From assembly GCA_025736915.1 (NCBI GenBank), contig CP107049.1, positions 1,116,001 through 1,180,000 on the forward strand: a DNA stretch of 64,000 nucleotides, given 5' to 3'. The position numbers and the translations under genes were made by a program. Below, one piece after another: positions 37,268-60,391 of the stretch. Source of the stretch: Acinetobacter nosocomialis. Lineage in GTDB: Bacteria; Pseudomonadota; Gammaproteobacteria; Pseudomonadales; Moraxellaceae. Below the pieces are notes generated by a model. The model did not search any database. It was not told where the DNA came from and saw only the letters and a list, made by a program, of their open reading frames with translations. How positions within the stretch are numbered: the first letter of the stretch is position 1; each line of letters opens with the position of its first letter.

Positions 37268-37990
37268 ATGAATATGAAAAAAACCTTACTGATGATTACA
37301 GGGACACTTCTGTGTGTTTCTTGTACGACCCGCCCTCCTCTACAAACGCCAGATTTATCAGAGGAACCTGCCAATAATAGACCTGTAGTTCCAGTCACTT
37401 TCGTTTTTACTACTGACAATCCTTCTGCTGCACGCTTTGATAACCTGACACAAATGCGAAAAGAAGTCCGCATCTTAAATAAATACTATTTAGATGACCA
37501 AGGAAATAAAATATTTAATTTCAAATTAAATCGTTATATTTCTTACCAAGATTTTTCAAAAATGCACTGCGAACTTGGTAATGAAATAAACCAAGCTCGT
37601 CCTATTTCTGTAGGCTCTATTCCCGCAAGTGCCAATGCATGTTTCCCTAAACGCACAGCACGTAAAGAAGTCATCATCTTTATATACGATGCATATTCAA
37701 AAAACTTAGAGTTTGATGATGTTACCAGTCGGACATTCCGTAATAATGGAAAACCCTTTATTTTATTAGACTGGAATCGTTTAAATTACAATATTCAAGC
37801 AGGTAGTATTCATGAAATGGGCCACGCTTTCGGCTTAAAACATGTATGTGCACCTAATGCTACCAAAACTACCCCGACCAATATTATGGCCAGTGCTGAA
37901 TGTAAATTAGGCAGTGGTGGATTAAGAAACTTAGGCTTTACGCAAGCACAGCTTCAAACCATTTTATCTAGTTATAAACAATATACTTAA
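37268..37990 (+). CDS. Lipoprotein zinc metalloprotease (HExxHxxGxxH)
   Basis: This 240-residue protein starts with a lipoprotein signal (lipobox region LCVSC, acylated Cys19) followed by a Pro-rich linker. The motif His182-Glu-Met-Gly-His186-Ala-Phe-Gly-Leu-Lys-His192 is a complete metzincin-type zinc site, with a later Met (TNIMAS) that may be the Met-turn. It is therefore likely an active envelope-anchored protease. Pairs of cysteines (MHCELG, ANACFP, KHVCAP, SAECKL) may form disulfides. The substrate is unknown. Its last four bases overlap the stop of the converging CapA-family gene. Confidence 0.8.
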   Translation: MNMKKTLLMITGTLLCVSCTTRPPLQTPDLSEEPANNRPVVPVTFVFTTDNPSAARFDNLTQMRKEVRILNKYYLDDQGNKIFNFKLNRYISYQDFSKMHCELGNEINQARPISVGSIPASANACFPKRTARKEVIIFIYDAYSKNLEFDDVTSRTFRNNGKPFILLDWNRLNYNIQAGSIHEMGHAFGLKHVCAPNATKTTPTNIMASAECKLGSGGLRNLGFTQAQLQTILSSYKQYT

Positions 37991-39711
37991 AATTTAATTT
38001 CAATATACGCCCCCAAGCTATCTTGGGTAGTAATGTAATCTTCATGGGCCAGTAAAGATGTCATATAAGTACTGGCCTTTGAAAAATTCTCAGTATCTAC
38101 AGGGTACGGTTGCCAAAAAGTTTTTAAGTTATCCGTATAAATTGGATAAAGTCGAAACAAGTCCTTTGCTAGATCTAGTCTCGCTATACAGCCAAATGGC
38201 AAAGCACTTTGCTGTTCATACTCTCCATCACTATTAAACACAGCATTGCCTATACCCAACACAACTGGCTTATGGTTGATGATCTGAATGGGTTGAATAG
38301 TATGAGCACCATGACCAATGATCAGGTCAGCCCCTGCTTGTGTAAGAATCGCAGCAAGTTTAATTTGCTCTTTTGTGGGAGGTTTGAAGTCGATTCCCCA
38401 ATGGCAAATAACAATAATTTTATGCTTAGGATGAGCCTGCTTATAACTCACTATTTGCTCAAGTAAAACACCATTTAAGCAAGCTACTCCACTTCGCGAT
38501 CCTAATGCATAGAAATCATAGTCTAGATAAGCGGTGTCTCTATGCCAGTAACCATTAAAAATCGCATAGTGCTTATTTTCAAAAGATATTTCAAAGTAAT
38601 TGTGGGCATCTTTTTGATTTAGTCCAGCACCTATATATAAAACATTCGCCTGATCTAACTGTTGTAATGTATAGGCCAATCCTTCATCGCCATAATCTTT
38701 CAAATGATTATTTGCCAACACCAAATAGTTAAGATGAACGTTATTAAACTCTTCTAATGTCTTTTTAGCATCGGCTTTTAGAATGAATGGCTTTTTATCT
38801 TTTAATGGTGATTGGTTTTCTAGAGAAAAGACTGCTTCAAAGTTAGCTATATTTATGTCATTTTTACCTAAAAATGGCTGTATTTTTTCAAATGAATAGT
38901 GATATCCATATTGTTGTAAAGCATCCATTTTCCCTCTAGATTTACGCTTTTCAGTATACATTTCACCGAAATAAGTATCTCCAAGAATATTGATGATCCC
39001 AGTCTGTGAAGTACAACTCTTCGCGTTTACATACTCTTCTTGGAAATAGTGATAATAAGGAACCAAATGCTCGAGACGGTGAATGTCATCTAAAAAAGAG
39101 AAAAAGCCAATGCTCTGGTTATCTTCAAGATAAGTAATATAAATTTGTCTAACTGTATGTGAGATATATAAAACCGAAGTGAGTACCGGATGAGCAAGTA
39201 AAGGCGTAATGGGTTGATATACTTTATTTTTAAAAGAAAGGTTTTTAATAAAGAAAAGTTTTTTTAGCTCGGCTGGATAGCTATAAATGTGCTGTACTAA
39301 TAGAAAGAGTTTTTTTAATTGATTAGATGAATTTAAAGTTAAATGATAGTTTCTTGCTCTTTGAGACAAGATCAATTGTGCTTGCTCAACTGAACCAAAA
39401 AGCATATTGCTTAAAGCATGTTTGACATCATTTGCCTGAGTAAAAATTAAGAATTGCAAGAGCTCGACAAATGTATATGTTTCATTTTTTTCTAAACCTA
39501 AATTTTGCTCACCAATTTGCTTAAGCTTTTGCTCAGATACAACATAGGTCTTATCTGCTTTGATATTTTTTTGATGAAACTGCTCTAATGCATAATCAAT
39601 GAGCAATAAAGTTGAAATGTCTCCATCAATTTCAAATTCCCAAACTGTATCATCAAAGTTCGTATTATCTAGAGCTGCCAATAACTTAATTTCAAACAGA
39701 GGATCAGTCAT
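37987..39711 (-). CDS. CapA-family protein with N-terminal extension
   Basis: The C-terminal two thirds of this 574-residue protein is a CapA/PgsA-type metallophosphatase-like domain. Its motifs are ILGDTYFGEMY (usually GDVMLGR), ANFEAVFSLE, LANNHLKDYGDEG, VICHWGIDFKPP and GHGAHTIQPI. CapA proteins act in poly-gamma-glutamate or related polymer synthesis. The first 200 or so residues have no recognised domain. There is no obvious signal peptide or membrane anchor, unlike classic CapA. The ATG overlaps the stop of the upstream gene (ATGA, 4 bases), with the Shine-Dalgarno GGAGAGGAG inside that gene, so the two proteins are translationally coupled. At its 3' end it overlaps the lipoprotein protease by four bases. 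Confidence 0.8.
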   Translation of the reverse strand: MTDPLFEIKLLAALDNTNFDDTVWEFEIDGDISTLLLIDYALEQFHQKNIKADKTYVVSEQKLKQIGEQNLGLEKNETYTFVELLQFLIFTQANDVKHALSNMLFGSVEQAQLILSQRARNYHLTLNSSNQLKKLFLLVQHIYSYPAELKKLFFIKNLSFKNKVYQPITPLLAHPVLTSVLYISHTVRQIYITYLEDNQSIGFFSFLDDIHRLEHLVPYYHYFQEEYVNAKSCTSQTGIINILGDTYFGEMYTEKRKSRGKMDALQQYGYHYSFEKIQPFLGKNDINIANFEAVFSLENQSPLKDKKPFILKADAKKTLEEFNNVHLNYLVLANNHLKDYGDEGLAYTLQQLDQANVLYIGAGLNQKDAHNYFEISFENKHYAIFNGYWHRDTAYLDYDFYALGSRSGVACLNGVLLEQIVSYKQAHPKHKIIVICHWGIDFKPPTKEQIKLAAILTQAGADLIIGHGAHTIQPIQIINHKPVVLGIGNAVFNSDGEYEQQSALPFGCIARLDLAKDLFRLYPIYTDNLKTFWQPYPVDTENFSKASTYMTSLLAHEDYITTQDSLGAYIEIKF

Positions 39712-41363
39712 TTCTCCTCTCCTTCGAAATCTTTTACATAGGCTATGTAGCCCGATAAGTTATGTTCTTGGTCATCTATTCTTACTCTAAAGCGATCATG
39801 TCGTACATAAAAAGCATGCAATATTTTATCTGGACGCGCCATGTACATCGCTATTTCTGGATAGAAAAAGCCTGTGGTTTGAAACTCAGCCCGAAATGTA
39901 ATGAGCTTTTTTAACTCGTGCATATATGCTTGTTCAAAAAGTTTTTGATGGCCTTGCTCTTTTAAACGATTTACCATTTTATAAGCAGCCATGAGCATTT
40001 CTAACAAAGTGGCATACGTTGTTTTTCTATTTCGAATAAAAATAAAATGTTTTAAATAATTATTTAAACCAAAAATAAAATATTTTTCTTCAGGACATAT
40101 TTTTGTAAGCTCATTGGTACAGTAACTTAACCAATGATCATGATATTTTTCATATCTTTTATAAATAAAGTTTTCAAACATTAATTTAACGGTATCTAAT
40201 AATCTTTTATCCTGATTAATTTGATATAACCTGAGCAAAGCTAATGCTGCTTCTCCATCGTAATAAATAATTCTAAACTTTTCTTTTAAATCATAGTTTG
40301 GATAATTTAATACATGAGTAGTTAATCCATCTGAATCAACTAATTTTAAAATACCATTTGCAAGTTTCTCTGCATATTTTAAATAATCCGCTTTTTGAGA
40401 AATTTCCTGATATTTCGTTAACATTAAAATAGCTGCTGCGTTTGCACCTAATTTAATTTCAAACTCCCCTTCTTTTCCATCACTCATAAAAGCAGTGATA
40501 GAGTCTTTTTCTTTATAAAAGTGAGTAAGTGCATATTGGATGGCACTCACAATTTTAGGCCAATATTCAGGTTTATTTTGTACTTCGAAAGTTTCTAATA
40601 ACGCATAAAGTGATGTGCAATGACGTACCGTATTGTAGTTGCGGATATCTCGATCGAAGGCAGGAAAATAACCATAAATGAATTTGCCATTTTCTTGAAT
40701 CTGGCTGTGCAAAAAAGCTGCATTTTTCTCAATCAGCTCTCTAAAATGCAGCTTCTTGTTGATCGCAATACCTCTAATACCATTTGCATCATAACGGCTT
40801 GCTAAATTAATAAACTTTCCATTTTCATAAAAGGTTGCATAGGTATCGAAAGTCCAAACATCTTGTAGCTCTTGTAGTCTAATATGTGATTGAACAGCAT
40901 TATATTTTTGCTTAATTGCATAGTTCAGATTGGTTTCATCAAAAAAGTTGGGTTTGTCATAACTTAAGCCCCGGATAATTGCTTTGCCATATATCTCTTG
41001 CTCAAGAAAAACTACCGAACATGCTTCATCAAATGCAATTCCTCTACGATAGTGGTTATTGTGAAATTGATGATGAACAAGTTGTTCTATTTGACTCCAA
41101 CTTTGTTTTTCTAGGTTGTACGCAACATCAATTTTTATATAGTCTGAAAGTTGATCTGGAGAAAACTGTCTATCAATAAAATCGAGTAATTGTATAGTTG
41201 CTTGTGAAAAAGCTGTTTTTTCGGTATGCCAGACATTACATCTTTGATCTTTAGGACCAAATGATATAAACAAAATTGTTTCTTCTGGAAGGTCTGGAAC
41301 ATGCTGAATGAAATGTTCCAACCAAAGCTTAAGTTGTCTTTTAAAGTCTAAAAATACCGACAC
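39708..41363 (-). CDS. Alpha/alpha-toroid (six-hairpin glycosidase-like) protein partnered with CapA
   Basis: This 551-residue protein has no signal peptide. From about residue 230 it shows repeated helix pairs with YNTVRHCTSLYALLETFE, EFEIKLGANAAAILMLTKYQ and IIYYDGEAALALLRLYQ. This is the pattern of an (alpha/alpha)6 barrel, as in glycoside hydrolases, epimerases and lanthionine-synthase-like proteins. The N-terminal 200 residues include RRGIAFDEACSVVFLEQEIYG. Function is unknown; with the coupled CapA-family protein, modification of a surface polymer is a fair guess. It starts 146 bases downstream of bap on the same strand, but a terminator lies in between. Confidence 0.65.
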   Translation of the reverse strand: MSVFLDFKRQLKLWLEHFIQHVPDLPEETILFISFGPKDQRCNVWHTEKTAFSQATIQLLDFIDRQFSPDQLSDYIKIDVAYNLEKQSWSQIEQLVHHQFHNNHYRRGIAFDEACSVVFLEQEIYGKAIIRGLSYDKPNFFDETNLNYAIKQKYNAVQSHIRLQELQDVWTFDTYATFYENGKFINLASRYDANGIRGIAINKKLHFRELIEKNAAFLHSQIQENGKFIYGYFPAFDRDIRNYNTVRHCTSLYALLETFEVQNKPEYWPKIVSAIQYALTHFYKEKDSITAFMSDGKEGEFEIKLGANAAAILMLTKYQEISQKADYLKYAEKLANGILKLVDSDGLTTHVLNYPNYDLKEKFRIIYYDGEAALALLRLYQINQDKRLLDTVKLMFENFIYKRYEKYHDHWLSYCTNELTKICPEEKYFIFGLNNYLKHFIFIRNRKTTYATLLEMLMAAYKMVNRLKEQGHQKLFEQAYMHELKKLITFRAEFQTTGFFYPEIAMYMARPDKILHAFYVRHDRFRVRIDDQEHNLSGYIAYVKDFEGEEK

Positions 41364-41463: not shown

Positions 41464-41492
41464 AAAAAAGAGAACCCTAGGGTTCTCTTTTT
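41464..41492. terminator. bap terminator, perfect palindrome
   Basis: AGAGAACCC TAGGGTTCTCT with flanking A5 and T5 is a near-perfect self-complementary 28-29-mer, 17 bases past the bap stop. It is symmetric, so it works on either strand and can also form an intermolecular duplex. Confidence 0.85.
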
Positions 41493-41509: not shown

Positions 41510-41940
41510 TTAATAGATAATTTGACCGTTGTTAAGAAGATCATTAAGCGTTAATGATGTTCTAGCTTGATCCAAATGAATCGTCAACAATTGTGTACTT
41601 GAATAAGTTAAACCTAAGCCATCACGGTCTACACTAATTGTGGCATTTTGTGTGGCAGCGTCATAGCTTACAGATACATACTGACCAATAGTTAAACTGT
41701 TTGGATGAGTAAGTAACAAGTTACTAATATCGATCTTATCAGCTTGGCTATCAGTTGTTGTATTACCTACATGGAAATCAGTCCATGTATCTTTACCACC
41801 AGCTGTTGTGTTACCACCTGTTGGGCTATTCACACTAGCAGCAGTCAACGTGTTGTAAATCAAGGTATCCGAGCCATTTCCAAGCGTAAATGTATCATTT
41901 GCTCCTGTACTTACAGCTAGGCTATTCAACTCTTGACTTA
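41510..41940 (-). other. bap: C-terminal type I secretion target domain
   Basis: It encodes about residues 6150-6293. It contains one RTX-like glycine/aspartate turn ([13 protein letters not shown]), a [10 protein letters not shown] motif and DKIDISNLL, typical of the T1SS C-terminal target domain of large adhesins. It ends in [14 protein letters not shown]. Confidence 0.8.
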
Positions 41941-44900
41941 AGTTGATGGTTAATGTGCTAGTTGACTCTGCACCAGTCACTGATACAAGTTTATAGTTAA
42001 TTGTATCAATCGTAGCATTCGCCGCAGTATCAAGCGCTTTATAGTAGTACGAACCATCATGGTAGAGATACAACGTACCTTCACCTGTATTGATCGCCTG
42101 ACCAGCAGCAATTTGGTAATTTCCTGGTGTAACTTCTACATATAGTTGAGAAGCAGCTGAAGTATCTGCTACTCCACCAGTTGTGTCGCCTAACAAGATA
42201 TTACCGTGAATCCAATCAGACTGACCATCAGGTGTATATTGATTTAGGTGTGTTACCGTAGTTGATACTTGCGTATCAATAGTTACAGTACCTATCGCTA
42301 TAGTGGTTAATGTATAAGACACGCGATACAGACCTGCATCTAAATGAGGTACTGTTTGATCAATAATAGCACCACCTAACCCAAGAGAGGCTAATGCAGT
42401 TTGTGAACCTGAATAAACAGTATTTACCCAAGTAGCACCACCATCATTGGATTTTTGAATAACGTAACTTACTGTTGGTCCTAATCCTGCCCCAGCAGCA
42501 AGTAATGCTTTGATACTCACATTATCCACAGTATTAGCAGCCACAGTGAATGAGTTAGAGTTCACTGTTTGACTACCAATCAATGTTACTGATGGATTAG
42601 CTACCGGTACATCAACAGCTGCATCGGTCACTTGTTTCATACTAACAGTTGCATGATTAATATCAGCATTTGCTACAGGTAACGGAATTACCGCATCTGC
42701 ACCAGGGTTAGCATTGTTCCAAGTAATATTCACATCTGGAGAACCAATTTGGATATGCAATGTTGCTGTGTCTGTTCTACCAGTTACAGGGTCTGTCACT
42801 GTATAGGTAAAGCTATCAACTTTTCCTATATTTTGTGTGTTCGCTGTAGCTTGATAACTGTAAGTACCATCAGCATTAATCGTTAAGGAACCATAAGCAC
42901 CCACAATAACTGTTGATGAACCTACATTCACAGCCGATGTATTACCTGTTTCAGAAGACACAGAAGTCACAACTGTCGTAGTCGTAATATAGTCTGGCGT
43001 ATAGTTTGGTCCATATACAGCCGAGTTGTCGTCTGAAAGAACATTGCCTGTAACCGGAGTTACAACCAAGTTAGGTACTTGCGTAATATCACCATTATTC
43101 AAAGTAATACTTGCAGTGACACTACCTAGAGCAGTTAGAAGCGTATTGCTTTCCATAAATAGCTCATAGCTACCAGAACCTAAATTATCAACTTTGAATT
43201 TCACTTCAGAGCCGAAGATACCTAATAGGTCAAGCACACCAGTATTTGCACTATCTGCAATTACCGTACGAGTACCGTCTGGATTTACTCGTGTTAATAC
43301 CACATGTAAACCATCAACAACTGTAGCTACTGAACCAAAGTTAACCGAGATGATAGCTTCAGACACATGTCCTTCAGCTACATTAAAAGTTGCTGTACCT
43401 TGTTTAGAACCAACAACAACGCCACCAACACCTAACAACCAGCTATAGCTAATCGCGTTATTAAGAACTTGTTGTGTAGTCGGGTAAACCATATCAATTG
43501 CTGCTGAAGCAACGTTATCCATTGCATCAACTGGAACATGACCTGTAATAACCGCAGGTTGTGATGGATCTGCTGCATTCCAAGTCATAGCAACCTTGTT
43601 ACTATCCAAGTGGACATACAAGATAGCTTGAGATGTATTACCTGTTGCTGGGTCTAGTAACGTATACGAGAACTGATCCACTTTACCAAGGTTGAGACCA
43701 TCTGCATTTGGTGTATAGGTATAATTACCATGTTGATCAATGACTAACGTACCGTAAGTACCAGTGATTGTAGTTGTACCCGTCGCATTAACAGCATTTC
43801 CGTTCACCGCTGAGATCACTGCATTATTGCTTGCAGCATCTACTGCACCATTAATACCTGCATCTTTGATGACGTTACCAGAGATCGGATCAACTGAATA
43901 TCCAGATACAACATATGGGTTATACACATCCATTGTACCTGTCAATGTACCACCAATACCCACACCTGCCAGACCACTGTAACCCATGAATGCACGATAT
44001 TGTCCTGGATCTAGCCCTTCAATGACTGCGGTTGGAGTACCTCCTATTAGAGATAAGCTAACTAAAGTCGCTTGTGGGTTGTTTCCGCCAATAGATACCC
44101 ATTGTCCTGTTGCAGCATCATATTTTTGAACAACAATCGAATAGTCATTCAATACACCAGCGTTGAGTAAACCACTGAATGTAAATGTCGCAGTACCTTG
44201 ACGGTCAGCATCTACATTAAATGCAACTGTTGGGTTACCAAGAAGTTGTAAATTTAGACCTGCTAACGATACTGCTGCTAAATAACTTGCACTACCAAGC
44301 GCTACATCATTCGCAACAAGTAAAGATTCTGGGTTAATTTCAGCAACTGCCAAGTTATCTGCAGCTTTAACAGAACTTAATTGAATGTTAAGTGCTGCTT
44401 GGGCCACATCACCAGTTACAGAATCTTTTAAGGTATATACAAAGTGATCGACTTGCCCAACTCCAGAAGCATTTTGATTTGGAGTATAAACGTATGAACC
44501 ATCAAGGTTGATCACCAACGTACCGTATGTACCATTAATGACTGTGCCATTAGCAAGAACAGGTTGGTTATTAACTTCACTCACAACTGTATTTGGAGTT
44601 ACGACATCAGCTTGCCCGCTTGAGTTAATATCTACAATCACATTACCGTCCGCAGTTTCTGTATAGAAACTACCGATTTGAGTTGTATCATAAATATCCA
44701 TAGTACCTGTTAAAGTACCGAGTAAACCAATACCTGCTAGACCGTTATAAGTCATGAATGCACGGTATTGACCTTGCTCAAGCCCATCGATAACAACACC
44801 TGGTGTAGAACCTAATAAAGTCAGGTGAAGAATATCTGCTTGACCACCACCATATATAGAAGTCCATTGACCAGTAGCTGTATCAAATTTTTGTACAACT

Positions 44901-47900
44901 AATGAGTAATCAGATAGAGCATTGACCCCAATTAAAGCACTGTAGGTGAATGTCGCATTACCTTCTTGATTGGCAGCTACATTAAAGTTAACCGCTTCAG
45001 AACCAAGTTGTAGGTTAAGACCAGCAAGTGATACAAGCGCCAAGTAAGTTTTGCTACCAAGAGCCGCATCATTTGCAATTTGTAATGGTTGTGGAGCCAG
45101 AACAGCCGTATCAAAGTTGTCATATGCAATGATAGAAGAACTTGCAATTGTATAACTTTGGGTAGCTTGCAAATTACTACTGTTGCCAGCAGCATCCGTA
45201 AAGGTTGCTTTTGCATCAACGGTCAAATCAGTATCAGCTACAAGCTGGCTACCAGGTACACCTATTGTCCATGTTCCACTTACTGGATCTACTACAGCTG
45301 TGTAGTCTGTGCCATTAACGTTAACAACAACCGAAGTAATAGTTGCATCAGCAGGAATAGTCACCGTTCCAGTAATATTTACTGTTCCTGCAGTCTCAAC
45401 TGGACTAAGGACGTTATCACCTGTAATCGGATTAAACGCAATTGCAGCCGTATTAATGTCTGGTGGCGTAGTATCCACAGTTACTGTGACATCAGTAGCA
45501 TTATCGATATTGCCTTGTGCATCTACTGCTTGTGCATGGATAGTCACTGGGCCGTCTGCAGTTACTGCGATTGCTGCTGTGATATAACCATTGCTCAAGT
45601 CAGTTGCATTAACAGTGTAGTTAGTGCCGTTAACGTTTACGACAGTACCTACCGCTGCATCTGGACCTAATCCTACACGGGCATTAAAGCTACCGTCAGT
45701 GCCAAGTTCTGCTGCATTGATGATGCCATCAATGTTTAAGTCATCCGGTACTGTGATCGCACTAATCAAATCAGCTGGTGTGGTATCTACAGTCACAGTG
45801 ACATCTGTTGGGCTGCTGATATTACCTTGCGCATCCACTGCTTGGGCATGAATGGTGATTGGACCATCCGCTGTCACAGGAATGGCTGCAGTGATATAGC
45901 CATTGCCAAGATCAGTCGCATTGACAGTATAGTTAGTGCCGTTAACGTTTACGACAGTACCCACCGCCGCATCTGGACCCAACACTACACGCGCATTGAA
46001 GCTGCCGTCTGTGCCAAGTTCCGATGCATTGATAATGCCATCAGTATTTAAGTCATCCGGTACTGTAATCGGACCAAGTAAGTTCGCTGGTAGCGTATCT
46101 ACTGTCACGATTACATCTGCTGGACTGCTGATATGACCTTGTGAATCTACTGCTTGGGCATGGATGGTAATTGGGCCATCCGCTGTCACAGGAATTGCTG
46201 CAGTGATATAGCCATTCGTCAAGTCAGTCGCATTGACAGTGTAGTCAGTGCCGTTAACATTCACGACAGTGCCCACCACTGCATCTGGACCCAATGCAAC
46301 ACGGGCATCAAAGCTGCCGTCTGTGCCAAGTTCTGCTGCATTGATAATACCGTCACTATTTAAGTCATCTGGTACTGTAATCGGACCAAGTAGATTCGCT
46401 GCTGCAGTGTCTACAGTCACGACCGCACTGCCAGTACCCACATTACCTGCAAGGTCTGTTGCTGTCACAGTCACGGTATGGGGACCATCGGTCAACACTG
46501 GAAGTGTATTGTCTGCAAGTGTCCAGCTACCATTGCCATTGTTCACCGCAGTATAGTTCACACCATTTACAGTCACGACCACAGTTGCTGTTGGATCGTT
46601 CACTGTACCTGTTAATTCAGGTGTGCTGTCATTGGTGGTTACATCACTTAAAGCGACTGTCGGCGCAGTAGCATCTAAAGTTACAGTGACATCTGTCGAA
46701 GTACTGATATTACCTTGCGCATCCATTGCTTGGGCATGGATGGTGATTGGCCCATCTGCTGTCACAGGAATCGCTGCGGTGATATAGCCATTCGTCAAGT
46801 CAGTTGCACTCACTGTGTAGTCAGTGCCATTAACATTCACGACAGTGCCCACCACTGCATCCGGACCCAACGCGACACGGGCATCAAAGCTGCCGTCTGT
46901 GCCAAGTTCTGATGCATTGATGATGCCATCAATGTTTAAGTCATCTGGTACTGTGATCGCACCAAGCAAGTTCGCTGGAGTTGTATCCACAGTCACAGTG
47001 ACATCTGTTGGAGTACTGATATTACCTTGTGCATCCACTGCTTGTGCATGGATGGTAATCGACCCATCTGCTGTCACAGGAATCGCTGCGGTGATATAGC
47101 CATTCGTCAAGTCAGTTGCACTTACTGTGTAGTCAGTGCCGTTAACATTCACGACAGTGCCCACCACTGCATCCGGACCCAACGCGACACGGGCATTGAA
47201 GCTGCCGTCTGCGCCAAGTTCTGCTGCATTGATAATGCCATCAGTATTTAAGTCATCTGGTACTGTGATCGCACCAAGCAAGTTCGCAGGAAGCGTATCC
47301 ACTGTCACAGTGACATCGGTAGGACTGCTGATATTACCTTGCGCATCCACCGCTTGTGCATGGATGGTAATCGACCCATCTGCTGTCACAGGAATCACTG
47401 CGGTGATATAGCCATTCGTCAAGTCAGTTGCACTTACTGTGTAGTCAGTGCCGTTAACATTCACGACAGTACCCACCGCTGCATCTGGACCTAACGCGAC
47501 ACGGGCATTGAAGCTACCGTCTGCACCAAGTTCTGCTGCATTGATGATGCCGTCAGTGTTTAAGTCATCCGGTACTGTGATTGCACCAAGCAAGTTCGCT
47601 GCTGCAGTATCTACAATTACAGTGACATCTGTCGGAGTACTGATATTGCCTTGCGCATCCACCGCTTGTGCATGGATGGTAATTGGGCCATCAGCAACCA
47701 CTGGGATCACTGCGGTGATATAGCCATTCGTCAAGTCAGTTGCACTTACTGTGTAGTCAGTGCCGTTAACGTTTACGACAGTACCCACCGCTGCATCTGG
47801 ACCCAACGCAACACGGGCATTGAAGCTATTGTCTGCACCCAATTCTGATGCATTGATAATGCCGTCAGTATTTAAGTCATCCGGTACTGTAATCGCTCCA

Positions 47901-50900
47901 AGTAAGTTCGCTGGAAGCGTATCTACAGTTACAGTGACATCTGTTGGGCTGCTGATATTACCTTGCGCATCCACTGCTTGTGCATGGATGGTAATTGCAC
48001 CATCTGCTGTCACAGGAATTGTTGCGGTGATATAGCCATTGCCCAGGTCAGTCGCACTCACTGTGTAGTCAGTACCGTTAACATTCACAACAGTACCCAC
48101 GGTTGCGTCAGAACCCAACGCAACACGGGCATTGAAGCTACCATCTGCACCAAGTTCTGATGCATTGATAATGCCATCAGTATTTAAGTCATCTGGTACT
48201 GTAATCGGGCCAAGTAAGTTCGCTGGTAGCGTATCTACTGTCACGATGACATCTGCTGGACTGCTGATATGGCCTTGGGCATCCACTGCTTGTGCATGGA
48301 TAGTGATTGGACCATCCGCTGTCACAGGAATTGCTGCGGTGATATAGCCATTCGTCAAGTCAGTTGCACTCACCGTGTAGTCAGTGCCGTTAACGTTTAC
48401 GACAGTGCCCACCACTGCATCTGGACCCAACGCGACACGGGCATCAAAGCTGCCGTCTGTGCCAAGTTCTGCTGCATTGATAACACCGTCACTGTTTAAG
48501 TCATCCGGTACTGTAATCGCACCAAGTAGGTTCGCTGCCGCAGTATCTACAGTCACAACCGCACTGGTTGTACTCAGATTACCTGCTGGGTCGGTTGCTG
48601 TCACAGTCACGGTATGTGGACCATCGGCCAACACTGGAAGTGTATTGTCTGCAAGTGTCCAGGTACCGTTGCCGTTATTAACCGCTGGATAGTTCACACC
48701 ATTTACAGTCACGACCACAGTCGCTGCTGGATCATTCACTGTACCTGTTAATTCAGGTGTGCTGTCATTGGTAGTTACATCACTTAACACAACTGTTGGC
48801 GCAGTAGTGTCTAAAGTTACAGTGACATCTGCTGGACTGCTGATATTACCTTGTGCATCCACCGCTTGTGCATGAATGATAATTGGACCATCTGCTGTTA
48901 CAGGAATTGCTGCGGTGATATAGCCATTCGTCAAGTCAGTTGCACTCACCGTGTAGTCAGTGCCGTTAACATTCACGACAGTACCCACCACTGCATCCGG
49001 ACCCAACGCAACACGGGCGTCAAAGCTGCCGTCTGTGCCAAGTTCTGCTGCATTGATGATGCCATCAATGTTTAAGTCATCTGGTACTGTAATCGCACCA
49101 AGTAAGTTCGCCGGTGTCGTGTCTACAGTTACTGTGACATCTGCCGGGCTGCTGATATGACCTTGTGAATCCACTGCTTGGGCATGGATGGTGATTGGGC
49201 CATCTGCTGTCACAGGAATTGCTGCGGTGATATAGCCATTCGTCAAGTCAGTTGCACTCACTGTGTAGTCAGTGCCGTTAACGTTTACGACAGTGCCCAC
49301 CACTGCATCCGGACCCAACGCGACACGGGCATCAAAGCTGCCGTCTGTGCCAAGTTCTGATGCATTGATGATGCCATCAATGTTTAAGTCATCAGGTACT
49401 GTAATCGCACCAAGTAGGTTCGCTGCTGCAGTATCTACAGTCACCACCGCACTGGTTGTACTCACGTTACCTGCTGGGTCGGTTGCTGTCACAGTCACAG
49501 TATGTGGACCATCTGCCAATACTGGAAGTGTATTGTCTGCAAGTGTCCAGGTACCGTTGCCATTATTGACCGCTGGATACTCCACACCATTTACAGTCAC
49601 CACAACAGTCGCTGTTGGATCGTTCACTGTACCGGTTAATGCAGGTGTACTGTCATTGGTGGTTACATCACTTAACGCAACTGTCGGTGCTGTCGTATCG
49701 ATAGTCACCACTGCACCTGTTATCCCCACATTACCTGCAGGGTCGGTCGCTGTCACAGTTACCGTATGTGGACCATCGGTCAACACTGGAAGCGTATTGT
49801 CTGCAAGTGTCCAGGTACCATTGCCGTTATTGACTGCTGGATAGTCCACCCCATCTACAGTCACCACCACAGTCGCAGTCGGATCATTCACTGTACCGGT
49901 TAATGCAGGTGTGCTGTCGTTGGTTAACACGTCACTCAAGGCAACGGTCGGTGCCAATGCATCTACAGTGCCTGTACCTGGTAATGATGGGTTACCTGCT
50001 GGGTCGGTTGCTGTCGCAGTCACTATTTGACCATCAAGCAAGTCACCTGGGTTTGGCGCTGTCCACTTACCATCAGGGCCTGCAACTACAGTTGCTGTTG
50101 TGCCATCAGGGAAGCTCACCGTTACGGTTGATCCCGCTTCTGCTGTACCTGTGATTGGATTAGTCGCATTGATTGGATCAATCACTGGTGCATTTGGTGC
50201 TGCCGTATCGACAGTCACGATGACATCTGCCGGGCTGCTGATATGACCTTGTGAATCCACTGCTTGGGCATGGATGGTGATTGGGCCATCTGCTGTCACA
50301 GGAATTGCTGCGGTGATATAGCCATTCGTCAAGTCAGTTGCACTCACTGTGTAGTCAGTGCCGTTAACGTTCACGACAGTGCCCACCACTGCATCCGGAC
50401 CCAACGCGACACGGGCATCAAAGCTGCCGTCTGTGCCAAGTTCTGCTGCATTGATGATGCCATCAATGTTTAAGTCATCAGGTACTGTAATCGCACCAAG
50501 TAGGTTCGCTGCTGCAGTATCTACAGTCACCACCGCACTGGTTGTACTCACATTACCTGCTGGGTCGGTTGCTGTCACAGTCACGGTATGTGGACCATCT
50601 GCCAATACTGGAAGTGTATTGTCTGCAAGTGTCCAGGTACCGTTGCCATTATTGACCGCTGGATACTCCACACCATTTACAGTCACGACCACAGTCGCTG
50701 CTGGATCATTCACTGTACCTGTTAATTCAGGTGTGCTGTCATTGGTAGTTACATCACTTAACACAACTGTTGGCGCAGTAGTGTCTAAAGTTACAGTGAC
50801 ATCTGCTGGACTGCTGATATTACCTTGTGCATCCACCGCTTGTGCATGAATGATAATTGGACCATCTGCTGTTACAGGAATTGCTGCGGTGATATAGCCA

Positions 50901-53900
50901 TTCGTCAAGTCAGTTGCACTCACCGTGTAGTCAGTGCCGTTAACATTCACGACAGTACCCACCACTGCATCCGGACCCAACGCAACACGGGCGTCAAAGC
51001 TGCCGTCTGTGCCAAGTTCTGCTGCATTGATGATGCCATCAATGTTTAAGTCATCTGGTACTGTAATCGCACCAAGTAAGTTCGCCGGTGTCGTGTCTAC
51101 AGTTACTGTGACATCTGCCGGGCTGCTGATATGACCTTGTGAATCCACTGCTTGGGCATGGATGGTGATTGGGCCATCTGCTGTCACAGGAATTGCTGCG
51201 GTGATATAGCCATTCGTCAAGTCAGTTGCACTCACTGTGTAGTCAGTGCCGTTAACGTTTACGACAGTGCCCACCACTGCATCCGGACCCAACGCGACAC
51301 GGGCATCAAAGCTGCCGTCTGTGCCAAGTTCTGATGCATTGATGATGCCATCAATGTTTAAGTCATCAGGTACTGTAATCGCACCAAGTAGGTTCGCTGC
51401 TGCAGTATCTACAGTCACCACCGCACTGGTTGTACTCACGTTACCTGCTGGGTCGGTTGCTGTCACAGTCACAGTATGTGGACCATCTGCCAATACTGGA
51501 AGTGTATTGTCTGCAAGTGTCCAGGTACCGTTGCCATTATTGACCGCTGGATACTCCACACCATTTACAGTCACCACAACAGTCGCTGTTGGATCGTTCA
51601 CTGTACCGGTTAATGCAGGTGTACTGTCATTGGTGGTTACATCACTTAACGCAACTGTCGGTGCTGTCGTATCGATAGTCACCACTGCACCTGTTATCCC
51701 CACATTACCTGCAGGGTCGGTCGCTGTCACAGTTACCGTATGTGGACCATCGGTCAACACTGGAAGAGTATTGTCTGCAAGTGTCCAGGTACCATTGCCG
51801 TTATTGACTGCTGGATAGTCCACCCCATCTACAGTCACCACCACAGTCGCAGTCGGATCATTCACTGTACCGGTTAATGCAGGTGTGCTGTCGTTGGTTA
51901 ACACGTCACTCAAGGCAACGGTCGGTGCCAATGCATCTACAGTGCCTGTACCTGGTAATGATGGGTTACCTGCTGGGTCAGTCGCTGTCGCAGTCACTAT
52001 TTGACCATCAAGCAAGTCACCTGGGTTTGGCGCTGTCCACTTACCATCAGGGCCTGCAACTACAGTTGCTGTTGTGCCATCAGGGAAGCTCACCGTTACG
52101 GTTGATCCCGCTTCTGCTGTACCTGTGATTGGATTAGTCGCATTGATTGGATCAATCACTGGTGCATTTGGTGCTGCCGTATCGACAGTCACGATGACAT
52201 CTGCCGGGCTGCTGATATGACCTTGTGAATCCACTGCTTGGGCATGGATGGTGATTGGGCCATCTGCTGTCACAGGAATTGCTGCGGTGATATAGCCATT
52301 CGTCAAGTCAGTTGCACTCACTGTGTAGTCAGTGCCGTTAACGTTCACGACAGTGCCCACCACTGCATCCGGACCCAACGCGACACGGACATCAAAGCTG
52401 CCGTCTGTGCCAAGTTCTGCTGCATTGATGATGCCATCAATGTTTAAGTCATCAGGTACTGTAATCGCACCAAGTAGGTTCGCTGCTGCAGTATCTACAG
52501 TCACCACCGCACTGGTTGTACTCACGTTACCTGCTGGGTCGGTTGCTGTCACAGTCACGGTATGTGGACCATCTGCCAATACTGGAAGTGTATTGTCTGC
52601 AAGTGTCCAGGTACCGTTGCCATTATTGACCGCTGGATACTCCACACCATTTACAGTCACCACAACAGTCGCTGTTGGATCGTTCACTGTACCGGTTAAT
52701 GCAGGTGTACTGTCATTGGTGGTTACATCACTTAACGCAACTGTCGGTGCTGTCGTATCGATAGTCACCACTGCACCTGTTATCCCCACATTACCTGCAG
52801 GGTCGGTCGCTGTCACAGTTACCGTATGTGGACCATCGGTCAACACTGGAAGAGTATTGTCTGCAAGTGTCCAGGTACCATTGCCGTTATTGACTGCTGG
52901 ATAGTCCACCCCATCTACAGTCACCACCACAGTCGCAGTCGGATCATTCACTGTACCGGTTAATGCAGGTGTGCTGTCGTTGGTTAACACGTCACTCAAG
53001 GCAACGGTCGGTGCCAATGCATCTACAGTGCCTGTACCTGGTAATGATGGGTTACCTGCTGGGTCGGTTGCTGTCGCAGTCACTATTTGACCATCAAGCA
53101 AGTCACCTGGGTTTGGCGCTGTCCACTTACCATCAGGGCCTGCAACTACAGTTGCTGTTGTGCCATCAGGGAAGCTCACCGTTACGGTTGATCCCGCTTC
53201 TGCTGTACCTGTGATTGGATTAGTCGCATTGATTGGATCAATCACTGGTGCATTTGGTGCTGCCGTATCGACAGTCACGATGACATCTGCCGGGCTGCTG
53301 ATATGACCTTGTGAATCCACTGCTTGGGCATGGATGGTGATTGGGCCATCTGCTGTCACAGGAATTGCTGCGGTGATATAGCCATTCGTCAAGTCAGTTG
53401 CACTCACTGTGTAGTCAGTGCCGTTAACGTTCACGACAGTGCCCACCACTGCATCCGGACCCAACGCGACACGGGCATCAAAGCTGCCGTCTGTGCCAAG
53501 TTCTGCTGCATTGATGATGCCATCAATGTTTAAGTCATCAGGTACTGTAATCGCACCAAGTAGGTTCGCTGCTGCAGTATCTACAGTCACCACCGCACTG
53601 GTTGTACTCACATTACCTGCTGGGTCGGTTGCTGTCACAGTCACGGTATGTGGACCATCTGCCAATACTGGAAGTGTATTGTCTGCAAGTGTCCAGGTAC
53701 CGTTGCCATTATTGACCGCTGGATACTCCACACCATTTACAGTCACCACAACAGTCGCTGTTGGATCGTTCACTGTACCGGTTAATGCAGGTGTACTGTC
53801 ATTAGTGGTTACATCACTTAACGCAACTGTCGGTGCTGTCGTATCGATAGTCACCACTGCACCTGTTATCCCCACATTACCTGCAGGGTCGGTCGCTGTC

Positions 53901-56900
53901 ACAGTTACCGTATGTGGACCATCGGTCAACACTGGAAGAGTATTGTCTGCAAGCGTCCAGGTACCGTTGCCGTTATTGACTGCTGGATAGTCCACCCCAT
54001 CTACAGTCACCACCACAGTCGCAGTCGGATCATTCACTGTACCGGTTAATGCAGGTGTGCTGTCATTCGTCAACACATCATCTAGCGCAACCACAGGTGC
54101 CGTAATGTCTGCAGAGACTGTACCTGAACCTGGCAATGAGGTATTGCCTGCAGGGTCGGTTGCTGTCGCAGTTACTGTTTGACCATCAGTCAAGTCACCT
54201 GGGTTTGGCACTGTCCATTTACCATCAGGACCTACAATCACAGTTGCTGTTGTGCCATCAGGGAAGCTCACAGTCACGGTTGATCCCGCTTCTGCTGTAC
54301 CTGTCACTGGATCAGTGGCATTGATTGGATCAAGAACCGGTGCATTTGGTGCTGTGGTATCGATAGTCACCACTGCACCTGTTGTACCCACATTACCTGC
54401 AGGGTCGGTCGCTGTCACAGTTACCGTATGTGGACCATCAGTCAACACTGGAAGCGTATTGTCTGCAAGTGTCCAGGTGCCATTGCCATTATTGGTTGCT
54501 GGATAGTTCACACCATCTACAGTCACCACCACAGTCGCACTCGGATCATTCACTGTACCGGTTAACGCAGGTGTGCTGTCATTCGTCAACACATCATCTA
54601 GCGCAACCACAGGTGCAGTAATGTCTGCAGAGACTGTACCTGAACCTGGCAATGAGGTATTGCCTGCAGGGTCGGTTGCTGTCGCAGTTACTGTTTGACC
54701 ATCAGTCAAGTCACCTGGGTTTGGCACTGTCCATTTACCATCAGGACCTGCAACTACAGTTGCTGTTGTGCCATCAGGGAAGCTCACAGTCACGGTTGAT
54801 CCCGCTTCTGCTGTACCTGTCACTGGATCAGTGGCATTGATTGGATCAAGAACCGGTGCATTTGGTGCTGTGGTATCGATAGTCACCACTGCACCTGTTG
54901 TACCCACATTACCTGCAGGGTCGGTCGCTGTCACAGTTACCGTATGTGGACCATCGGTCAACACTGGAAGCGTATTGTCTGCAAGTGTCCAGATACCGTT
55001 GCCGTTATTGACTGCTGGATAGTCCACCCCATCTACAGTCACCACCACAGTCGCAGTCGGATCATTCACTGTACCGGTTAATGCAGGTGTGCTGTCGTTG
55101 GTTAACACGTCACTCAAGGCAACGGTCGGTGCCAATGCATCTACAGTGCCTGTACCTGGTAATGATGGGTTACCTGCTGGGTCAGTCGCTGTCGCAGTCA
55201 CTATTTGACCATCAAGCAAGTCACCTGGGTTTGGCGCTGTCCACTTACCATCAGGACCTGCAATCACAGTTGCTGTTGTGCCATCAGGGAAGCTCACAGT
55301 CACGGTTGATCCCGCTTCTGCTGTACCTGTCACTGGATCAGTGGCATTGATTGGATCAAGAACCGGTGCATTTGGTGCTGTGGTATCGATAGTCACCACT
55401 GCACCTGTTGTACCCACATTACCTGTAGGGTCGGTCGCTGTCACAGTTACCGTATGTGGACCATCGGTCAACACTGGAAGCGTATTGTCTGCAAGTGTCC
55501 AGGTGCCATTGCCATTATTGGTTGCTGGATAGTTCACACCATCTACAGTCACCACCACAGTCGCACTCGGATCATTCACTGTACCGCTTAACGCAGGTGT
55601 GCTGTCATTCGTCAACACATCATCTAGCGCAACCACAGGTGCAGTAATGTCTGCAGAGACTGTACCTGAACCTGGCAATGAGGTATTGCCTGCAGGGTCG
55701 GTTGCTGTCGCAGTTACTGTTTGACCATCAGTCAAGTCACCTGGGTTTGGCACTGTCCATTTACCATCAGGACCTGCAACTACAGTTGCTGTTGTGCCAT
55801 CAGGGAAGCTCACAGTCACGGTTGATCCCGCTTCTGCTGTACCTGTCACTGGATCAGTGGCATTGATTGGATCAAGAACCGGTGCATTTGGTGCTGTGGT
55901 ATCGATAGTCACCACTGCACCTGTTGTACCCACATTACCTGTAGGGTCGGTCGCTGTCACAGTTACCGTATGTGGACCATCGGTCAACACTGGAAGCGTA
56001 TTGTCTGCAAGTGTCCAGGTGCCATTGCCATTATTGGTTGCTGGATAGTTCACACCATCTACAGTCACCACCACAGTCGCACTCGGATCATTCACTGTAC
56101 CGCTTAACGCAGGTGTGCTGTCATTCGTCAACACATCATCTAGCGCAACCACAGGTGCCGTAATATCTGCAGAGACTGTACCTGAACCTGGCAATGAGGT
56201 ATTGCCTGCAGGGTCGGTTGCTGTCGCAGTTACTGTTTGACCATCAGTCAAGTCACCTGGGTTTGGCACTGTCCATTTACCATCAGGACCTGCAACTACA
56301 GTTGCTGTTGTGCCATCAGGGAAGCTCACAGTCACGGTTGATCCCGCTTCTGCTGTACCTGTCACTGGATCAGTGGCATTGATTGGATCAAGAACCGGTG
56401 CATTTGGTGCTGTGGTATCGATAGTCACCACTGCACCTGTTGTACCCACATTACCTGCAGGGTCGGTCGCTGTCACAGTTACCGTATGTGGACCATCGGT
56501 CAACGCTGGAAGCGTATTGTCTGCAAGTGTCCAGGTACCGTTGCCGTTATTGACTGCTAGATAGTCCACCCCATCTACAGTCACCACCACAGTCGCAGTC
56601 GGATCATTCACTGTACCGGTTAATGCAGGTGTGCTGTCATTCGTCAACACATCATCTAGCGCAACCACAGGTGCCGTAATATCTGCAGAGACTGTACCTG
56701 AACCTGGCAATGAGGTATTGCCTGCAGGGTCGGTTGCTGTCGCAGTTACTGTTTGACCATCAGTCAAGTCACCTGGGTTTGGCACTGTCCATTTACCATC
56801 AGGACCTGCAACTACAGTTGCTGTTGTGCCATCAGGGAAGCTCACAGTCACGGTTGATCCCGCTTCTGCTGTACCTGTCACTGGATCAGTGGCATTGATT

Positions 56901-59900
56901 GGATCAAGAACCGGTGCATTTGGTGCTGTGGTATCGATAGTCACCACTGCACCTGTTGTACCCACATTACCTGCAGGGTCGGTCGCTGTCACAGTTACCG
57001 TATGTGGACCATCGGTCAACACTGGAAGCGTATTGTCTGCAAGTGTCCAGGTGCCATTGCCATTATTGGTTGCTGGATAGTTCACACCATCTACAGTCAC
57101 CACCACAGTCGCACTCGGATCATTCACTGTACCGGTTAACGCAGGTGTGCTGTCATTCGTCAACACATCATCTAGCGCAACCACAGGTGCAGTAATGTCT
57201 GCAGAGACTGTACCTGAACCTGGCAATGAGGTATTGCCTGCAGGGTCGGTTGCTGTCGCAGTTACTGTTTGACCATCAGTCAAGTCACCTGGGTTTGGCA
57301 CTGTCCATTTACCATCAGGACCTGCAACTACAGTTGCTGTTGTGCCATCAGGGAAGCTCACAGTCACGGTTGATCCCGCTTCTGCTGTACCTGTCACTGG
57401 ATCAGTGGCATTGATTGGATCAAGAACCGGTGCATTTGGTGCTGTGGTATCGATAGTCACCACTGCACCTGTTGTACCCACATTACCTGCAGGGTCGGTC
57501 GCTGTCACAGTTACTGTATGTGGACCATCGGTCAACACTGGAAGCGTATTGTCTGCAAGCGTCCAGGTACCATTGCCATTATTGGTTGCTGGATAGTTCA
57601 CACCATCTACAGTCACCACAACAGTCGCACTCGGATCATTCACTGTACCGCTTAACGCAGGTGTGCTGTCATTCGTCAACACATCATCTAGCGCAACCAC
57701 AGGTGCCGTAATGTCTGCAGAGACTGTACCTGAACCTGGCAATGAGGTATTGCCTGCAGGGTCGGTTGCTGTCGCAGTTACTGTTTGGCCATCAGTCAAG
57801 TCACCTGGGTTTGGCACTGTCCATTTACCATCAGGACCTGCAACTACAGTTGCTGTTGTGCCATCAGGGAAGCTCACAGTCACGGTTGATCCCGCTTCTG
57901 CTGTACCTGTCACTGGATCAGTCGCATTGATTGGATCAAGAACCGGTGCATTTGGTGCTGTGGTATCGATAGTCACCACTGCACCTGTTGTACCCACATT
58001 ACCTGCAGGATCAGTTGCAGTCACAGTCACGGTGTGTGGACCATCGGTCAACGCTGGAAGCGTATTGTCTGCAAGTGTCCAGGTGCCGTTGCCATTATTG
58101 GTTGCCGGATAGTTCACACCATCTACAGTCACAACCACTTTCGCAGTCGGATCATTCACTGTACCGCTTAACGCAGGTGTACTGTCGTTGGTTAATGTCG
58201 TGGTGACAGTCACAGTTGGTGCAACTGCATCTACTGTACCAGTTGAAGGAGTTGATGGGTTACCAGCAGGGTCGGTTGCAATAGCTGTAACTTTATCACC
58301 ATCTTTAAGATCACCTGGGTTTGGCGCTGTCCATTTACCATCAGGGCCTGCAACGACAGTTGCTGTCGTACCATCAGGGAAAGTTACTTTAACTGTTGAA
58401 CCTGGTTCTGCTGTACCTGTCACTGGATCAGTCGCATTGATTGGATCAATTACCGGTGCAGTTGGAGCTGTGGTATCGATAGTCACAACTGCATTTGTTG
58501 TACCTACATTACCTGCAGGGTCTGTTGCAGTCACAGTCACGGTGTGTGGACCATCGGTCAACGCTGGAAGCGTATTGTCTGCAAGTGTCCAGGTGCCGTT
58601 GCCATTATTGGTTGCCGGATAGTTCACACCGTCTACAGTCACAACCACTTTTGCAGTCGGATCATTCACTGTACCGCTTAATGGAGGTGTACTGTTATTG
58701 GTTAATGTCGTGGTGACAGTCACAGTTGGTGCAACTGCATCTACTGTACCAGTTGAAGGAGTTGATGGGTTACCAGCAGGGTCGGTTGCAATAGCTGTAA
58801 CTTTATCACCATCTTTAAGATCACCTGGGTTTGGCGCTGTCCATTTACCATCAGGGCCTGCAACGACAGTTGCTGTCGTACCATCAGGGAAAGTTACTTT
58901 AACTGTTGAACCTGGTTCTGCTGTACCTGTCACTGGATCAGTCGCATTGATTGGATCAATTACCGGTGCAGTTGGAGCTGTGGTATCGATAGTCACAACT
59001 GCATTTGTTGTACCTACATTACCTGCAGGGTCTGTTGCAGTCACAGTCACGGTGTGTGGACCATCGGTCAACGCTGGAAGCGTATTGTCTGCAAGTGTCC
59101 AGGTGCCGTTGCCATTATTGGTTGCCGGATAGTTCACACCGTCTACAGTCACAACCACTTTTGCAGTCGGATCATTCACTGTACCGCTTAATGGAGGTGT
59201 ACTGTCATTGGTTAATGTCGTGGTGACAGTCACAGTTGGTGCAACTGCATCTACTGTACCAGTTGAAGGAGTTGATGGGTTACCAGCAGGGTCGGTTGCA
59301 ATAGCTGTAACTTTATCACCATCTTTAAGATCACCTGGGTTCGGCACAGTCCATTTACCATCAGGGCCCGCAACTACAGTTGCTGTCGTACCATCTGGGA
59401 AAGTCACTTTAACAGTTGAACCTGGTTCTGCTGTACCTGTGACTGGATTGGTCGCATTGATTGGATCAATTACCGGTGCAGTTGGGGCTGTCGTATCTAC
59501 TGTATAAGATTTTGACTCATTAATATTGCTGCTGTTACCTGCTGCATCAGTAAAAGTAACTTTTGCATCAATTGTTTTATCGCTATCTGCAATTAAACCA
59601 CTGCCTGGTACAACTACACTCCACGTACCTGCTGCTTTGTCTACATTTGCAGTGTAAGTTACACCATTAACAACTACGGTAACGACAGTATTTGCAGCAT
59701 CTGTCGGAATATTTTTTAAACTACCCGTAACAGTAACATTACCCGCAGCTTCTGTTGAATTAATAATATTATCTGAAGTTACAGGATCAACAGAGAAAGT
59801 AACGCCATTTGTATTTGGCGGCGTAGTATCTGCAGGAGAAGAGTCATTACTGCTACCACTATTTGATGCAGCAGCAATGATACCACCTGCAACAAGAGGT

Positions 59901-60391
59901 ACTGCTGCCCACAACCATGGGTTCACACCTGCATCGTGATAAAGTAATGGCTGAATTGAAGAAATAGGTTGGTAAATAACATCAGACACTAATGCCTGCG
60001 GTGCTTCTGCTGGTAGAGCTGCTGGTAAATCTTCACCTAAAAGTGCTTGCGGCTCTACATCGCTGTCAGCATCCGCATCTGCATCACTGTCAGCATCCGC
60101 ATCATTTTCGGCATCTTTAAATTTTGCCCAAATGAGTTGGCCATTTTGGTCTTGAAAAACAAGACTATTATCGGCTGGCTCAGCTGTTCCACTAAAGAAG
60201 CCTTCAATAACAATAGTTTCACCATTTTTTAGGCGAATTACTGCATTGGTACCCTCCCTATTTACTACCAACACATCACTGGCAGCCACTTTTACCAACA
60301 CAACTGATGCTTCTGAAAGTTTTGCAGAAGTTCCCTCTGTTGTTGCCAAGGTTTTGTGACTGTCCTTGGCAATAATTTGTATCTCAGGCAT
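41510..60391 (-). CDS. bap: Giant biofilm-associated adhesin, Bap family, type I-secreted
   Basis: One open frame of 6,293 codons. The N terminus (1-95) is the BapA-prefix-type domain, followed by an Asp/Ala-rich linker (about 94-115) and a hydrophobic segment [18 protein letters not shown] (158-175). From about residue 300 to 4975 the protein is 51 Ig-like repeats of three classes: 14 A (about 84 residues, DPINAT...GPDGKW), 21 B (88 residues, [14 protein letters not shown]) and 16 C (104 residues, with an EF-hand-like loop). Two related non-repeat Ig domains cap both ends. Four larger VCBS/cadherin-like units follow (about 5090-6160), then a C-terminal type I secretion signal with [16 protein letters not shown]. 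Bap mediates cell-cell adhesion and biofilm in A. baumannii; the 307-0294 version is about 8,600 residues. A Shine-Dalgarno (AAGGAA) precedes ATG 60391. HlyB/D-type exporter genes are not nearby. Confidence 0.95.
41940..45130 (-). repeat. bap: four large divergent VCBS/cadherin-like units
   Basis: Each unit ends in the pattern [17 protein letters not shown]...G-VD-FSYTL-D--TG. The first two are closest to each other ([22 protein letters not shown]); the last two are more divergent and begin with a short W-NNA/W-NAA segment. Unlike the A/B/C array, they are not nearly identical at the DNA level. Confidence 0.75.
48547..50520 (-). repeat. bap: 1,974-bp tandem duplication, unit 1
   Basis: This stretch is almost identical to 50521-52494. 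Even rare local variants (for example the [21 protein letters not shown] repeat and the GNISSPADV ending of a C repeat) recur at +1,974. Only a few substitutions were noticed, such as near 49790/51767 and 49998/51972. Confidence 0.85.
50521..52494 (-). repeat. bap: 1,974-bp tandem duplication, unit 2
   Basis: This is the second copy of the block at 48547-50520. It is followed by a further related 1,086-bp block (about 52494-53579), which lacks the 888-bp B+C+C part. Confidence 0.85.
54100..59500 (-). repeat. bap: tandem A+B repeats of 510/516 bp (N-terminal half of the array)
   Basis: A and B repeats alternate with a strict period. The period is 510 bp at the N-terminal end (58201, 58711 and 59221 start the same text, and neighbouring copies differ by only about one base). 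Further in it is 516 bp (for example 54136, 54652, 55678, 56194, 56710, 57226 and 57742, with one 510-bp step). Confidence 0.9.

Follow-up and report, generated by a model that had tools for sequence, protein, structure and literature searches.

What do the two genes that directly follow bap in Acinetobacter nosocomialis do? We addressed this question in a stretch of 64,000 nucleotides (contig CP107049.1, positions 1,116,001 to 1,180,000; hereafter, the window) from a 3.87 Mb Acinetobacter genome. According to the list of open reading frames (ORFs), the minus strand of the window carries bap (41510-60391), which encodes a giant adhesin of 6293 amino acids. After a gap of 146 bp it is followed on the same strand by a gene with a GTG start for a toroid protein of 551 amino acids (39708-41363; hereafter, TOR), and this gene overlaps by ATGA (39708-39711) with a gene for a CapA-like protein of 574 amino acids (37987-39711; hereafter, CapA). 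A preliminary description of this DNA had reported the pair, its stop/start overlap and its position behind bap, all of which the sequence confirmed, and had suggested a polymer- or peptide-modification step, possibly cytoplasmic. We consider it probable that TOR and CapA represent a reduced form of a cytoplasmic module, broadly scattered in its occurrence, that modifies the neighboring adhesin at its Asp-dipeptide tract before export. The association between TOR and Asp-tract adhesins is well supported, and for the chemistry of the module we infer the steps described below.

The proposed target site lies near the N-terminus of Bap. Residues 97-112 (60056-60103, minus strand) form a conserved Asp-dipeptide tract of 16 residues, which recurs in the orthologues at loci L264 and L265 and had escaped the preliminary description. 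Among Firmicutes, TOR was located beside proteins with (DA)n, (DS)n or (DG)n tracts in 23 of 25 loci, and tracts were present in 21/50 ORFs adjoining TOR compared with 3/286 ORFs farther away (p = 9e-17). For the comparison within Acinetobacter, the homologous N-terminal module of Bap, present in 78 of 119 genomes, served as a handle. All 21 Bap N-termini linked to TOR, some of which were on another contig than TOR where assemblies broke inside bap, carried a tract of at least 14 residues, and a short tract of 14-18 residues was kept in 20 of them. By comparison, no tract was found in 20 Bap N-termini from 17 genomes lacking TOR (first 233-598 residues) or in the eight readable unlinked Bap paralogues, a count that excludes L302 because of its wrong frame. 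Reading was then extended to 72,811 residues in 20 stretches of adhesins from genomes without TOR (11 of the same proteins and nine others, three of them not read to their ends); none had five or more Asp-dipeptide pairs, and a single one had four.

Of ten additional Bap N-termini taken from genomes with a toroid gene (first 371-592 residues), five contained a tract. Three of the five tract-less N-termini (L090, L085 and L084) had a tract elsewhere at the locus; of the other two, L286 was partly unread and adjacency to TOR was not shown for L288. When named records were retrieved with their flanks, a tract was present in 7 of 9, namely those of a Staphylococcus aureus plasmid, Klebsiella aerogenes, Listeria, Agrobacterium, Nitratireductor, Staphylococcus epidermidis and Sulfitobacter; for Acinetobacter baumannii VB958, the stretch read did not reach the Bap N-terminus. 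The window's genome also encodes a second protein with the Bap N-terminal module, of approximately 729 amino acids (G000:C1:902528-902782; 31% identity), and the 584 residues of it that were read contain no Asp tract.

Gene order was examined across other genomes, as the preliminary description had proposed. In 42 of the 50 Moraxellaceae loci, the toroid gene stood immediately 3' of a gene of the Bap type and shared its strand. CapA was immediately next to the toroid gene in 26 of these 50 loci (24 of the window type and 2 with an ATP-grasp gene behind), and the 4-nt overlap was found again in 14 of the 26. A step that acts on a peptide and is tied to the adhesin fits this evidence (42/50 and 23/25 loci), while the polymer synthesis also envisaged in the preliminary description found no support. 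The pair did not prove to be widespread apart from surface genes, though some toroid loci had no such gene in the stretch read.

The partners at this position vary. In the other Moraxellaceae loci, the toroid gene is followed by a fusion of MurF-like ligase and CapA, a YheC/D ATP-grasp protein, an active-type S11 peptidase, a family 4 glycosyltransferase (GT4) or an acetyltransferase, and outside Moraxellaceae TOR also forms fusions with MurF-like, ATP-grasp or GT4 domains. In A. haemolyticus and two species known from draft bins, CapA, a MurF-like ligase and a dead S11-like domain are joined in one polypeptide (L072/L142, L155 and L169). MurF models scored best for all 11 ligase partners scanned, all of them below the curated cut-offs. 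At five distinct loci, the S11 partner retains the SxxK, SxN and KTG motifs and has no signal peptide by inspection. Judging from these family names, D-amino acid chemistry appears to be a recurring theme among TOR partners. TOR is accompanied by type I secretion genes in Klebsiella, Agrobacterium, Nitratireductor and Sulfitobacter, and two small toroid genes (L184 and L190, both of the two such tested) have a cell-wall protein gene on one side and a sortase gene on the other.

Several other arrangements were observed around the toroid gene. Fusion proteins of approximately 1606 amino acids combine toroid, CapA and MurF-like domains (L118 6168-10988, L120 6442-11274 and L125 485-5311; L118, L119 and L120 belong to one genome). 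In Virgibacillus (L208 12155-14334), a D-alanine--D-alanine ligase gene starts 23 bp behind a YheC/D ATP-grasp gene. Cassettes behind the toroid gene (L082 7252-11669; L084; L087) encode an unknown protein of 587 amino acids, a HAD protein, a nucleotidyltransferase and an APH-type kinase, and look like a small sugar or cofactor pathway.

Relatives of TOR have a scattered distribution within Pseudomonadota and Firmicutes. In the genus sample, CapA relatives were present in 31 of 119 genomes and toroid relatives in 39; counting the window's own genome, toroid relatives occurred in 3 of 369 genomes of the class sample and 14 of 398 of the phylum sample. A pattern scan of a collection of species genomes gave 458 toroid relatives, and the best 80, which were fetched, came from Moraxellaceae, Pseudomonas, Bacillales and Staphylococcaceae, the closest named relative among them being from A. 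nosocomialis (95% identical). Plasmid records with a toroid gene numbered 54, adding Agrobacterium, Klebsiella, Listeria, Enterococcus and others, and eight phage records contained TOR-like DNA.

In the window itself, no ligase is encoded in the neighborhood of the pair. The genome-wide scan found one MurF gene above its cut-off, elsewhere in the genome; YheC/D ATP-grasp had no match over cut-off in the whole genome, and the best match to the PgsB/CapB ligase reached 20 bits against a cut-off of 222.7. This agrees with the preliminary description, which had noted that CapB and CapC are missing here (CapC was not searched for), and had missed the ligases that stand at the same spot in relatives. 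Because the ligase absent from the window is present at the same place in relatives, the window form looks reduced.

A reduced form could also be a dead one. The two genes might be neighbors of bap without any functional link, or a module that has decayed and become inactive in the Acinetobacter calcoaceticus-baumannii complex; the window's genome lacks both a second MurF and a YheC/D ligase over cut-off. In A. baumannii VB958 (CP040041, L332 7653-9378), capA is broken by a frameshift into two frames beside a toroid gene in one open frame (capA was matched in one piece in three other A. baumannii records), and in one A. seifertii genome the TOR gene (L061 3444-5099, the same place as L135) is split by an in-frame TAG. 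However, none of the 32 CapA matches listed contains a stop, and the conservation of the 14-18-residue tract in 20 of 21 TOR-linked N-termini also speaks against decay, which we regard as very improbable.

We further analyzed the structural features of the two proteins, neither of which has an export signal visible by inspection. Their AlphaFold models were confident (mean predicted local distance difference test scores of 89.4 for CapA and 92.2 for TOR). CapA matched the Pfam family PGA_cap (PF09587) with 143.1 bits against a gathering cut-off of 27, in line with the CapA-type assignment of the preliminary description. The fold of residues 236-574 (37990-39006, minus strand), a calcineurin-like fold, resembles that of the peptide epimerase MslH (Z = 29.8, root-mean-square deviation [rmsd] 3.5, 311 residues aligned), a metal-dependent lasso peptide epimerase for which residue roles have been described (PMC10406935, available text). 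Residues D245, E292, N335, H336, D339, H437 and H470 of CapA were invariant in an alignment of 31 sequences including the window's. In the printed alignment, E44, N87, H88, D91 and H295 of MslH corresponded to E292, N335, H336, D339 and H470 of CapA; D11 and H259 could be paired by motif only and H261 was unpaired, and such residues are common in phosphoesterases too. CapA differs from MslH in that it scored far below the curated cut-off of the MslH equivalog NF038314 (32.2 bits against 700), is fused to a further domain, and would have a giant adhesin as its substrate.

This further domain is the N-terminal extension that the preliminary description had put at 200 residues and left unexplained. 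The extension is real, comprising approximately 225 residues (4-226; 39034-39702, minus strand), and its fold provides an explanation, as it resembles the DD-carboxypeptidases PBP5 and PBP6 (Peptidase S11; Z = 18.8, rmsd 3.0, 209 residues aligned). Sequence support was weak, with 14.7 bits against a cut-off of 27.6 for Pfam Peptidase S11 and a profile match to DD-carboxypeptidase at E = 2.1e-4. Unlike PBP5 and PBP6, the domain lacks a visible export signal and all three catalytic motifs; SxxK, SxN and KTG are lost in the window's CapA and in the seven relatives displayed. By its motifs, it is a dead DD-carboxypeptidase-like domain, that is, a predicted pseudoenzyme.

The PGA_cap domain links CapA to CapA/PgsA of poly-gamma-glutamate capsules, and the pair might be a remnant of poly-gamma-glutamate or capsule synthesis whose position beside bap is due to chance. 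In contrast to that system, no visible export signal and no PgsB/CapB over cut-off are found here, and the gene is coupled to that of a toroid protein whose link to adhesins spans two phyla. We rejected such synthesis as the main explanation, with no PgsB over cut-off and a toroid that tracks adhesins, and consider a leftover of this kind highly unlikely.

For TOR, the alpha/alpha-toroid label of the preliminary description held for residues 200-551 (39711-40766, minus strand). In the fold search, where the absence of a family from the list proves nothing, this domain was closest to AGE-type (cellobiose 2-epimerase-like) epimerases (Z = 30.1, rmsd 2.7, 318 residues aligned), followed by GH76 (Z = 27.0), with sequence identities of approximately 9-15% in the rows of both groups. 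Structure prediction for residues 1-199 (40767-41363, minus strand) gave an alpha/beta domain, which the rows of the fold search do not cover and which may be AMMECR1-like. TOR further differs from AGE epimerases and GH76 in its link to Asp-repeat proteins and in belonging to no Pfam family: the window's TOR had no Pfam or NCBIfam match up to E = 10, and its profile found no solved structure better than E = 0.13. Four relatives had GH76 or GH88 matches below the cut-offs.

Many toroid relatives in plasmid records are labeled poly(glycerol-phosphate) alpha-glucosyltransferase. Neither of the two proteins checked, the window's TOR and that of Staphylococcus (L198), contains a glycosyltransferase domain, and TOR-GT4 fusions do (L121 and Klebsiella L325). 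The label may stem from such fusions, for example Klebsiella tagE, and is exposed here as misleading.

The closest folds of TOR raise the possibility of a system that only glycosylates, in which TOR would process a sugar on the adhesin in the manner of AGE or GH76 enzymes and the ligases and CapA would decorate that sugar. The sub-cut-off GH76 or GH88 matches are in keeping with this, as are the frequent GT4 partners, sometimes fused to TOR, and a GT2 gene near TOR in Staphylococcus pasteuri (L205). In the available text of two papers, SdgA and SdgB add N-acetylglucosamine to SD repeats (PMC3794999), and staphylococcal sdr genes are followed by glycosyltransferase genes (PMC8360574). The present loci resemble that system, in which an adhesin with (SD)n repeats likewise has dedicated enzymes encoded next to it, and both GT4 partners scanned gave their best scores with SdgA and SdgB (187-219 bits; cut-off 800). 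The available descriptions of SdgA and SdgB (PMC3794999 and PMC8360574) do not contain TOR, CapA, MurF-like or ATP-grasp partners, and TOR, unlike SdgA and SdgB, also goes with Ser-less DA and DG tracts.

The composition of the tracts bears on this question. We compared 47 loci, that is, the 49 of 87 with visible tracts minus two duplicates (L134-L177 not included). GT4 partners were found only where Ser exceeded 30% at non-Asp positions, a threshold picked after the data had been seen (12/12 loci, compared with 9/35 loci without GT4; p = 6e-6), and two of the GT4 assignments are fragments at contig ends (L072, 102 amino acids; L206, 169 amino acids). Against a glycosylation-only system, 26 of the 47 loci had a tract with at most 30% Ser at these positions and no GT4 found in the toroid operon, and many such tracts consist almost entirely of DA and one consists of DG. 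We regard this explanation as rather unlikely. Because TOR is common to DS, DA and DG tracts, its target should be Asp or the backbone. A corresponding rule that the MurF-like ligase goes with DA repeats was not upheld, being a trend only (9/11 ligase loci low in Ser compared with 17/36 without ligase, p = 0.08).

TOR and CapA might also act without chemistry, as a chaperone or export adaptor that binds the acidic tract. At some loci with DG or DA proteins next to TOR, the profiles used found no partner enzyme (L124, L178 and L190), and the DD-carboxypeptidase-like domain fused to CapA is dead, as such a role would allow. However, TOR relatives keep many invariant polar residues in an enzyme fold, and the partners of TOR are classical enzyme families, several with intact motifs. 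We consider a purely binding role unlikely.

We thus return to modification of the tract before export. TOR, as the core enzyme, would recognize the tract in the cell and act on the constant Asp or the backbone. CapA, with residues that align with five of the key residues of MslH, would alter stereochemistry in the tract, perhaps as an epimerase, or remove a group from it, and its dead PBP-like domain may bind the D-residue product or substrate. Export would follow modification, by type I secretion in Gram-negatives and as cell-wall proteins in Firmicutes. In relatives, the Asp carboxylates would receive an amino compound from MurF-like or ATP-grasp ligases, and Ser would receive a sugar from SdgA/B-like enzymes; the window would keep only TOR and CapA, matching its short tract. 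Cyanophycin synthetase, which joins an ATP-grasp domain to a Mur ligase and acts on poly-Asp, offers a likeness in mechanism. At one relative (L083), a YheC/D ATP-grasp domain is likewise fused to a Mur ligase beside an Asp-repeat protein; it differs in that its ligase is closest to MurF models and its substrate is ribosomally made.

A more specific and considerably more tentative version is that peptidoglycan-type chemistry takes place on ribosomally made Asp-dipeptide repeats, with the Asp side-chain carboxylates as acceptors; we came across no description of a protein modification of this type. MurF-like ligases would attach D-Ala-D-Ala or its kin, cytoplasmic DD-carboxypeptidases would trim it, dead PBP-like domains would bind it, CapA-type epimerases would set stereochemistry, and TOR would prepare the tract. 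The TOR-CapA pair of the window would then be a ligase-free branch acting on a short tract.

Several observations weigh against tract modification as we propose it. The window has no dedicated ligase, its tract is only 16 residues long, and the catalytic residues of CapA, as far as their sequence tells, are common to ordinary metallophosphoesterases. A terminator-like hairpin with a 12-bp stem and a T tail (41465-41492, minus strand) lies between bap and TOR, so that their co-transcription is not assured. The Acinetobacter loci share ancestry; their counts are not independent, and the p values overstate independence. Within the DNA read, a tract was seen in only 17 of 50 Moraxellaceae loci, which is low because bap is mostly longer than the flank and its N-terminus was out of reach, and in only 5 of the 15 toroid loci of the class and phylum samples, several of which are contig ends or draft bins. 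A 16th locus, L133, dropped as a partial toroid match not found by the profile, had no tract, nor did Variovorax L329 or the toroid-CapA-MurF fusions of L118, L120 and L125 within the stretches read (the first two of these fusions count here), and A. gerneri L172 had neither Bap nor a tract within 21.6 kb.

Two further features surround the pair. A predicted lipoprotein with a metzincin motif (HExxHxxGxxH, by inspection) is encoded on the plus strand (37268-37990), its gene ending convergently inside the last bases of capA. Its matrixin and reprolysin matches are below cut-offs, it is the convergent neighbor of capA in 24 of 24 window-type loci, and it may process the adhesin. Within bap, G+C content reaches 49-52% in the repeat region (46001-58000), compared with 33-47% in flanking 2-kb blocks.

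Adhesins with Asp-dipeptide repeats are present in staphylococci, Acinetobacter, Klebsiella and others. In its available text, a 2015 survey of Acinetobacter BAPs described the DA insertion of A. baumannii and A. haemolyticus as curious without explaining it, and likewise reported SD-rich "beta-BAPs" without explanation (PMC4647330). Our literature search, by title and the start of the abstract and with most subscription papers outside its reach, found, among the papers listed, none on Asp-repeat adhesins with a linked toroid or MurF-like enzyme. Ser glycosylation by SdgA and SdgB can explain only Ser-containing repeats; that one unnamed family accompanies DA, DS and DG repeats alike, and does so in two phyla, points to the constant Asp as the modified residue. 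Confirmation that MurF-type or epimerase reactions act on Asp tracts would make the system categorically new. If the peptidoglycan-type version were true, the adhesin would be exported with D-amino acids attached, and these could withstand proteases or offer cell-wall transpeptidases a handle.

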